Assembly (NCBI RefSeq): GCF_030718935.1
Contig: NZ_CP132194.1
Location: 1,798,001-1,862,000 of the forward strand
DNA length: 64,000 nt
Origin: Psychrobacter sp. M13
Lineage (GTDB): Bacteria; Pseudomonadota; Gammaproteobacteria; Pseudomonadales; Moraxellaceae
Direction of reading: 5' to 3'
Shown: positions 12,921-14,195 of the stretch, in pieces
Layout: each line of letters starts with the position of its first letter
Numbering within the stretch: position 1 is the stretch's first letter
Translations under genes and position numbers: made by a program
Notes under the pieces: model-generated
What the model saw: only the letters and a program-made list of their open reading frames with translations
What the model was told of the DNA's origin: nothing
Database searches by the model: none

Positions 12921-12982
12921 TAACCCACTGTTGAATGTTTGAATTATAGATTTGGTGGGTTAAGCTATCGCTAACCCACCCT
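12921..12982. repeat. REP-like palindrome cluster, target of the IS110 insertion
   Basis: Three related arms are present: TAACCCAC (12921-12928), GGTGGGTTA (12954-12962) and TAACCCACC (12972-12980). The middle arm can pair with either neighbour. The second and third form a 9-bp stem with a 9-base loop. The original right continuation after CC is CT-ACG, now found at 14177-14181 beyond the insertion sequence. The pre-insertion repeat therefore read TAACCCACCCTACG, as in widespread REP-like elements. It may also act as the 3' stem-loop of the orphan gene. Confidence 0.75.
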
Positions 12983-12984
12983 TG

Positions 12985-12990
12985 TATGAT
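12985..12990 (+). promoter_or_regulatory. -10 half of a circle-junction promoter at the IS left end
   Basis: TATGAT lies a few bases inside the left end, about 7 bases before the predicted start of the bridge RNA. In the integrated state the bases 17 bp upstream (12962-12967) do not resemble a -35 box. In an excised circle the right end would supply TTGCTT at a spacing of 17 bp. Confidence 0.6.
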
Positions 12991-12994
12991 AAAA

Positions 12995-13165
12995 AGTGCC
13001 ACTATTAGCGTACACTAATGGAGGCACTGTCGGCATAGAGTTGAACCCAGCCTTAGGTTTAAAACCTGTAACGTAGATAAAGCCTATGCCGACAATCCAT
13101 AACACACATCTCGAATGGTATCCTAGGCACACAGTCGTGTAGCCCGAATCTACAAGGTTTAAGAG
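12995..13165 (+). ncRNA. IS110 bridge RNA (target- and donor-binding loops readable)
   Basis: The order of parts matches bridge RNAs. First is a 5' hairpin, AGTGCC (12995-13000) with GGCACT (13023-13028), with an inner ATTAG/CTAAT. Next is a target-binding loop closed by a perfect 11-bp stem (13028-13038 with 13084-13094). It contains a left guide AACCCAGCCT (13044-13053) and a right guide CGTAG (13072-13076). Then comes a donor-binding region with ATGGTATC (13115-13122), a hairpin GGCACAC/GTGT-A-GCC (13126-13144) and TACAAGG (13151-13157). The left target guide matches the left flank in 9 of 10 bases, and the right guide complements the right flank CTACG. Exact RNA ends are estimated. The family mechanism is established; this assignment is by eye. 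Confidence 0.85.
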
Positions 13166-13169
13166 TACT

Positions 13170-14147
13170 ATGGATCATACTTATTATATTGGCATTGACA
13201 TCTCATGCAAGAGCTTTGATGCCGCTTTATACATCGACAACACCCACTATCAACATTTAAGCTTTGATAACACTGCCCAAGGCTTTGATTCGCTACTATC
13301 GTGGCTCGACAAAGCGCCCTCAGATTTGCGCTTTCTGATGGAAGCGACTAACGTTTATTGGGAACCACTGGCATATTACCTAAACGCTAAAGGTATTACC
13401 GTTAGTGTGATCAACCCTAAATGCATTAAAGGCTATGCGAGCAGTCTTAACATTCGTAGCAAGAGTGACATCGTTGATGCTAAGCTTATTGCTCGCTATT
13501 GTGCCAAAGAGCAGCCACAAGCGTGGCTACCCCCTAAAGAAGCAGAGCGAGGCTTGCTGCTAAAGCTACGTCAGCTTGAGCATTTAAAGTGCCAGCATCA
13601 ATCTGAACAGGTGCGTAAAACTATGCTTAGAGACTGTGATGCTATAGCATCCTGTCAGCGAACACTTGACTTTCTAGCATCTGAAATCACTTTGATTCAA
13701 GCGACTATAGATGAGCTTATTGCCTCTGATGAGACGCTCAAACGTAATGCCAAGCTTCTAGCCTCTATACCCGCTGTTGGCAGGCTCACTGTGCCTTGGC
13801 TACTTGCCTATCTAGGCGATGGGTCTAAGTTCAAAAAGGCAAAACAAGCGACAAGCTTTGCAGGTCTCACTCCTATGATTCATCAGTCAGGAACCTCTGT
13901 TGAAAAGAAGCCTCGTATCTCTAAGATTGGTCATTCCGAAATTAGAAAGGTGCTGTATATGCCTGCTATGGGGTTCGCATTTGGCAAGTATAAAAATGGT
14001 GCTTATCAAAGCTTTGTCACTCGCTTAAACAGTCATGGCAAACCTAAGATGGTGGTGATCGTCGCTTTGATGCGAAAGATTCTATCCATCGCTCAAGCGG
14101 TTCTCAAAAACCAACAGCCTTTTAATGCTGCTTTACATAAAAATTGA
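13170..14147 (+). CDS. IS110-family transposase (RuvC-like DEDD plus serine domain)
   Basis: Bridge-RNA-guided recombinase of 325 residues. The N-terminal RuvC-like DEDD_Tnp domain has D10 (YYIGIDIS), E58 (RFLMEATNVYW), and D100 and D103 (SKSDIVDAKLIARY). A coiled-coil linker runs from about 125 to 195. The C-terminal Transposase_20 domain has LASIPAVG, FAGLTPMIHQSGTS with the likely nucleophile S240, and RISKIGHSEIRKVLYMPAM. These positions are close to those I recall for IS621. There are no frameshifts or stops, so the enzyme looks functional. The right donor guide of the bridge RNA ends 12 bases before the start codon and overlaps the weak ribosome site. Confidence 0.96.
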   Translation: MDHTYYIGIDISCKSFDAALYIDNTHYQHLSFDNTAQGFDSLLSWLDKAPSDLRFLMEATNVYWEPLAYYLNAKGITVSVINPKCIKGYASSLNIRSKSDIVDAKLIARYCAKEQPQAWLPPKEAERGLLLKLRQLEHLKCQHQSEQVRKTMLRDCDAIASCQRTLDFLASEITLIQATIDELIASDETLKRNAKLLASIPAVGRLTVPWLLAYLGDGSKFKKAKQATSFAGLTPMIHQSGTSVEKKPRISKIGHSEIRKVLYMPAMGFAFGKYKNGAYQSFVTRLNSHGKPKMVVIVALMRKILSIAQAVLKNQQPFNAALHKN

Positions 14148-14157
14148 GCTTTTAAGC

Positions 14158-14163
14158 TTGCTT
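14158..14163 (+). promoter_or_regulatory. -35 half of a circle-junction promoter at the IS right end
   Basis: TTGCTT lies 15 bases before the right boundary. Adding the first two bases of the left end (TG) gives a 17-base spacer to TATGAT. It is oriented outward across the junction, so it would be active only when the ends are joined or when a suitable -10 lies in the flank. This is inference from spacing. Confidence 0.55.
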
Positions 14164-14195
14164 TTTCTCATGGTATCTACGCTTTACTCAAGGAC

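Follow-up and report, generated by a model that had tools for sequence, protein, structure and literature searches.

The window, the whole 64,000-nucleotide stretch analyzed here (G000:C1:1798001-1862000, in a genome of 3.2 Mb), carries what is almost certainly an intact insertion sequence of the IS110 group and of the IS621 type, probably recently active and moving by the bridge-RNA cycle proposed below. Five identical copies, a precise empty site in genome G027, the concordance of guides and targets at fixed columns and a fold with a z-score of -4.6 together indicate more than a chance resemblance. For IS621 the reading of guides has been demonstrated, and for its relatives it was inferred in 2024 from the covariation of 2,201 donor and 5,511 target pairs (PMC11208160). 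Relatives such as IS621 have already revealed this mechanism, of which the element is a clean new example: a compact natural case that lets one read its guides, its two ends and core, an empty site and five different targets. Its lineage, ~38% identical to the IS621 protein, offers another candidate bridge recombinase.

The host is Psychrobacter-like: a plasmid of Psychrobacter sp. P2G3 matches 73% of a 3-kb query taken from the second contig, at 96.7%. The copies are identical over 1196 bp and are found at the window locus, at C1:772152 and at three places within ~6 kb near C1:2734-2740 kb. Every copy starts with CTTGTATGATAAAA, ends with CATGGTAT and is followed by CT. The original prediction had drawn the limits at 12981..14178; the start stands, and the end moves to 14176, since the CT core occurs again at 14177-14178. 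Comparing the element's ends with its open reading frame gives a non-coding left end of 189 bp and a right end of 29 bp. Such a long non-coding left end, together with a short CT core and a precise empty site (at one of five loci, in G027), is characteristic of the IS110 group. The IS1111 group, in contrast, carries its bridge RNA in a long right end, and it has sub-terminal inverted repeats of 7-17 bp according to PMC11208160. The main features of the locus are the following:

12981-14176, + strand: IS110-family element (five identical copies; empty site in G027)
12973-12982, + strand: left target and CT core, AACCCACC-CT, at the foot of a predicted REP-like target hairpin (uninterrupted in G027)
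14177-14181, + strand: second copy of the CT core and right target ACG (G027 empty site; coordinate check)
14170-14176, + strand: left donor, the element's right end ATGGTAT (end calls; donor-guide match)
13170-14147, + strand: DEDD recombinase/transposase of 325 amino acids (PF01548, PF02371; NF033542 above its cut-off; ISCro4 and IS621 structure matches)

G027, the one genome listed as the same species, is without any copy of the element. At the window's locus it matches the left flank up to window position 12982 and the right flank from 14177, with CT as the overlap; the junction had been predicted at the CT core, and G027 reads ...GCTAACCCACC-CT-ACGCTTTACTC... exactly there. The remaining four copies have no clean empty site in G027, where the 772-kb site holds a differing intergenic sequence and the 2732-2743 kb region is mostly absent. 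G027 also contains a short match to the element's right end only, apparently a solo remnant. A same-species genome that lacks the element and holds such a remnant is what one might see if the element were the relic of an ordinary IS110 copy, formerly guided by a bridge RNA and now immobile. Yet its five copies are identical over 1196 bp, with the open reading frame and catalytic residues intact, and while gene conversion could contribute to this identity, we consider an immobile relic unlikely. Right ends of the element or of a close relative, apparently solo, were observed at G027:C1:1538995 (L065), G000:C1:2740556 (L006) and G000:C1:105350 (L007); in L007 two right ends meet tail to tail, forming an imperfect palindrome whose outer ends both carry CTACG.

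The element's single gene contains PF01548 and PF02371 domains and scores above the cut-off of NF033542, and its product has the layout of the IS110 family, with a DEDD RuvC-like N-terminal domain and a Transposase_20 C-terminal domain that includes the catalytic serine. Compared at the protein level, the best match among solved structures is ISCro4 (PDB 9t56, E = 3.2e-60, residues 4-323), with IS621 (8wt6) matching at E = 9.7e-58. The catalytic residues originally named, D10, E58, D100, D103 and S240, are all present, and in the alignment with the IS621 chain they fall within the corresponding motifs. On our reading of that alignment, they would be equivalent to IS621 residues D11, E60, D102, D105 and S241, whose mutation abolished recombination (PMC11208158).

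Identity to IS621-annotated proteins is ~38%. A wider search of genome contigs with the window protein returned nine loci, the best of them 38% identical, and in viral contigs neither the window protein nor Piv, used as query, yielded a confirmed relative. The IS110 elements used from the family genomes (g1, the window's genus, and g2 and g14, by inference Acinetobacter and Moraxella) share the same architecture and have readable guides, with a protein identity of ~32-38% to the window protein. In a tree of 31 recombinases, which includes long branches such as L103 and whose wider placement is weak, the window protein groups with L103, an element from G321 with a broken reading frame (support 99/96), and the Piv group, L098-L101, is the sister of these two (support 94/89, slightly short of the 95/80 mark). 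IS621 is placed elsewhere, and most family-genome elements fall in another clade. The closest relatives are on contigs C7, C13, C21 and C8 of G101 and C233, C111 and C13 of G290, with 67-80% identity over the last 30-43 residues; they lie at contig ends or are fragmentary, which accounts for the full copies missing from these draft assemblies. G101 is the closest of all, and its left end is 86% identical over 122 bases.

The non-coding left end contains four guides and the stems of a predicted bridge RNA:

12985-12990, + strand: TATGAT, possible -10 box of a circle-junction promoter (consensus match only)
12995-13028, + strand: 5' hairpin of the bridge RNA (minimum-energy fold)
13028-13038, + strand: 5' arm of the target-binding-loop stem (13 distinct stems in relatives, 8-11 complementary bases)
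13044-13053, + strand: left target guide, effective part probably 13045-13053 (fixed-column test; mismatch count)
13072-13076, + strand: right target guide (fixed-column test)
13084-13094, + strand: 3' arm of the target-binding-loop stem (relatives' stems; coordinate check)
13095-13101, + strand: 5' arm of the predicted donor-loop outer stem, ATCCATA (window fold)
13115-13122, + strand: left donor guide, ATGGTATC (end match; inside the held-out model match at 13101-13172)
13151-13156, + strand: right donor guide, TACAAG (match to the element's left end)
13169-13175, + strand: 3' arm of the predicted donor-loop outer stem, TATGGAT, overlapping the start codon (window fold)

Three of the guides read just as first quoted. 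The right target guide CGTAG complements the right flank CTACG (14177-14181), the left donor guide equals the right end at 14170-14177, and the right donor guide TACAAG complements the left end CTTGTA (12981-12986), so that the donor-loop guides are complementary to the element's own ends, as in the IS110 group. The left target guide AACCCAGCCT had been proposed to span 13044-13053 and to equal the left flank AACCCACCCT (12973-12982) except at one base; its coordinates and the single mismatch are borne out, but 13044 is probably not a guide base. Among 28 distinct guide/target pairs, this position fails to match in 22, compared with 2-5 mismatches at each of the remaining seven non-core positions (a count that leaves out L104, L107, L124, L137 and L155 and includes the own targets of the four other copies). 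This makes 13045-13053, seven bases and the CT, the probable effective left guide.

The range first suggested for folding, 12990-13169, has a z-score of -3.9 and leaves the donor domain unclosed, its end being too short, whereas 12994-13180 has a z-score of -4.6 and folds into a 5' hairpin, a target loop and a closed donor domain. The 5' hairpin expected before the target loop has its arms at 12995-13000 and 13023-13028. The target stem, described as a perfect 11-bp helix, does have 11 complementary bases, of which 10 pair in the minimum-energy fold while 13028 pairs in the 5' hairpin. All guides had been expected in internal loops: both target guides are indeed unpaired in the internal loop of the target stem, but part of the left donor guide pairs with part of the right donor guide in the minimum-energy fold of the free RNA, and the donor loop is not open there. 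The donor domain is closed by 13095-13101 pairing with 13169-13175, and the 3' arm covers the transposase start codon; the bridge RNA probably runs to ~13175, its donor loop closing over that codon. This outer stem is a prediction from the window fold only, and a longest-complement search for it was powerless, as shuffles were often as long and other bases were picked in the window.

Two stems recur across relatives. Among 45 insertions, the target-loop stems take 13 distinct forms of 8-11 bp (longest complement, G-U allowed), and 0-25 of 500 shuffles are as long. The donor apical stem, which is flanked by the donor guides, has 97% of its cells paired and two-sided changes at four of five pairs; 6 of 500 shuffles reach its two-sided count, none reach its covariation score and 53 match its further pair types, and sliding the partner by one to three columns leaves at most 53% paired. 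A donor-loop model built from 14 other elements, with the window held out, matches window positions 13101-13172 at 23.2 bits (E = 0.001 over 119 kb, roughly calibrated), and the next-best match in the window has 9.0 bits. An Rfam scan of the window found no family at its gathering score, which neither supports nor refutes the structure. RNAalifold on A2 recovered the donor apical stem only; the probable reason is that MAFFT leaves the variable target stems unaligned. Two other leaders upstream of IS110-type transposases look donor-loop-like: L188:393-454 in an inovirus (OR148970.1), which the covariance model R1 matches at 20.0 bits (E = 0.006), and L187 on the Eikenella corrodens plasmid pMU1, which R1 does not find and in which a single contiguous site downstream of the gene seems, by eye, to match the two halves of a guide-like pair.

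We quantified the agreement of guides and targets on 62 loci, 60 of them stretches around some of the listed IS110 matches in the family genomes, together with L046 and L047 from the genome contigs. Guides were read at columns fixed by the original coordinates after left-end alignment, which leaves no freedom of search, and ends were called by simple motifs. The following were removed before counting: six loci that are short and partial (L118-L123), 12 in which the motifs located no ends (L098-L103, L105, L106, L131, L132, L046 and L047), and L133, which had a wrong core call. For L149-L151 and L157, the core was set right manually beforehand. The remaining 43 loci, the window and the IS621 copy L158 make 45 insertions with 17 distinct guide pairs, the window's own site being the sole one of the five own sites in this test.

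Across the 17 guide pairs, own targets match at 8.02 of 11 non-core positions, compared with 3.45 for the targets of others, and none of 20,000 permutations is as good, a figure that overstates the number of independent events because the guide pairs are non-independent lineages. The own target is unbeaten by other target sets for 12 of the 17. Three other target sets outscore the own targets of ACCGCACCCT, and one does so for GAGTGCTGCT; at the fixed columns L104 and L107 fail to match their own targets, L137 needs a shift of one column to match, and the L124 insertion, within the AGTATAACCT pair, has a left match of 3/10. The clearest cases are right guides reading CTGAG, CTCTT, CTTTG and CTCAA, whose right targets are identical to them. 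In G101, position 6 of the left guide is A instead of G and the target has A too; its right guide reads CTACA, and its three right-end flanks are CTACA, CTACG and CTAAG, their pairing with left ends being hidden by contig breaks inside the element. The target-loop guides are complementary to the target and covary with it across relatives, as expected of the IS110 group. If the protein alone set specificity and target preference merely co-evolved with it, some concordance would also appear, as guides and proteins are linked and co-inherited; but complementarity that runs position by position, on opposite strands in the two halves, is unexpected from protein co-evolution, and we give this explanation next to no credence. 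A separate pair of insertions in G006, L125 and L126, has the same left target guide, with differing bases before the right target guide (GTGACGTAG vs GTTTCGTAG) and differing right targets within one genome (CTACTG and CTACGC).

The element's own five targets share the form ACCCANC-CT-AC(G/A) and lie at the feet of short hairpin repeats. Their left sides match the effective guide except at position 6 (the core being 8-9), which is C in the window copy, G in one copy, where the match is perfect, and A in three; four of the five sites have one left-guide mismatch, always at this position. The right target is CTACG at four sites and CTACA at one. Differing only at left-target position 6 and at the last right-target base, the five sites are useful for studying mismatch tolerance. 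Elsewhere in the genome, 16 further ACCCANCCTAC sites are unoccupied, and four of these (ACCCAGCCTACG) match both guides fully, which, set beside the mismatch at four of the occupied sites, weighs against the guide reading; a target preference cannot be inferred from five insertions. A handshake-guide account of the position-6 mismatch was rejected, as pairing at positions 6-7 had no consistent pattern by eye.

All five own targets are predicted to fold as hairpin feet, and three lie near Y1_Tnp genes that we term RAYT-like (a scan covered two of these genes, one of which has the same protein product as the third). These features would also arise if the recombinase recognized the REP-like hairpin itself, through its structure or repeat sequence as RAYT transposases do, with the guide-like segments being coincidental. 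However, the altered guides of relatives go with altered targets (exactly so for the right guides CTGAG, CTCTT and CTTTG), and a common hairpin preference would not yield 0 of 20,000 permutations, which makes direct hairpin recognition very improbable. Under guide-directed insertion, the preferred reading, hairpin-foot targets fit the use of REP sequences by IS110 elements reported in PMC11208160. One region (L068, G000:C1:2731500-2743500) holds three copies of the element in REP-like hairpins near three Y1_Tnp genes, along with two genes that match the CdiA-type PT-VENN pre-toxin; most of it is absent from G027. ISPpu9 and ISPpu10 are REP-targeting insertion sequences as well, and the element has insertion into REP hairpins in common with them, in other hosts and other sequences.

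By analogy with IS621, we infer that the element undergoes excision, transcription, RNA binding and catalysis as follows. The recombinase would act at the CT core and release the element as a circle, and the joined right and left ends would assemble a promoter that directs synthesis of a ~180-nt bridge RNA from the left end. The first loop of this RNA would pair with both target strands (left side ACCCAGC-CT, right side CTACG), and the second loop with the circle junction (ATGGTAT-CT and CT-TGTA). The DEDD/serine recombinase would then join target and circle, leaving the element between two CT dinucleotides. Across the circle junction, TTGCTT (14158-14163) would lie 17 bp upstream of TATGAT, with the same geometry as TTGCAG-17-TATTAT in IS621, though other junction pairs and one pair in the integrated context score equally against the consensus. 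The element resembles IS621 in its left end (CTTGTAT...), CT core, right end (..AGTAT), readable guides and catalytic motifs, in a long non-coding left end with a target stem and a donor apical region, and in its REP targets, as stated for IS621 in PMC11208160. It differs in protein sequence (~38% identity), in its guides and in the sequence of the donor apical stem.

The part of this analysis that would surprise a specialist concerns the neighboring branch of the tree. Because a pilin coding sequence lies next to them, together with inverted sites, we take L098-L101 to be Piv, the pilin invertase of Moraxella. These proteins are 41% identical to the window protein; unlike the element, they are not seen as mobile, they lie beside pilin inversion sites, and no target loop is seen with them. 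In the seekRNA paper, IS621 and IS492 are likewise nearest to Piv (PMC11187229). From 78 bases ahead of the piv start codon (ATG), the leader sequence is TTGGTATCCTGGGAGCAAAACCCGCAAGCTAGG. Its left part, TTGGTATCCT, equals the left side of the pilin inversion site including CT, and its right part, AGCTAG/AGCTAGG, is the reverse complement of the site's right side, CTAGCT/CCTAGCT. Both strands of the inversion site, TTGGTATC-CT-AGCT, are matched by this pair, which occupies the position of a donor loop. The guide-like pair occurs in the leaders of G314, G321 and G311 (L161:2988-3020, L159:3511-3543, also L160, L162 (minus strand)); the three leaders are nearly identical and count once.

The match was noticed first and scored afterwards. 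It has a score of 16 (9 + 7 bases at the best core position, CC; 10 + 6 at CT), which is reached by none of 3,000 two-base block shuffles (maximum 15) and none of 1,742 overlapping tiles (maximum 14; 38 tiles holding the leader or sites were left out). Scored in a like manner, the donor loop of the element in the window obtained only 12, within the shuffle range, and the score is therefore an insensitive detector of true loops. The covariance model R1 did not find the Piv leader, which counts against close RNA homology. Also weighing against a Piv guide, a Neisseria recombinase reportedly inverts Moraxella pilin sequences, to judge from one paper's title. A literature search, with preprints and most subscription papers outside it, found no report of a guide RNA for Piv. 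We hold only tentatively, at slightly less than even confidence, that the element belongs to the mobile lineage closest to Piv among the genomes searched and that Piv is itself RNA-guided, by a reduced bridge RNA with a single loop, located in the leader of the piv mRNA. As the two inversion sites share their sequence, a single loop would be enough. If true, Piv would be the domesticated half of a bridge-RNA system, and, if the leader is a guide, Piv's recognition of its inversion sites would become directly testable. In G314 there are two inversion sites, inverted and 2.2 kb apart. In G321 (C1:223560-233274), six pilin inversion sites lie near piv in alternating orientation, four of them with one mismatch to the pattern, which suggests an expanded invertible region rather than a single switch.
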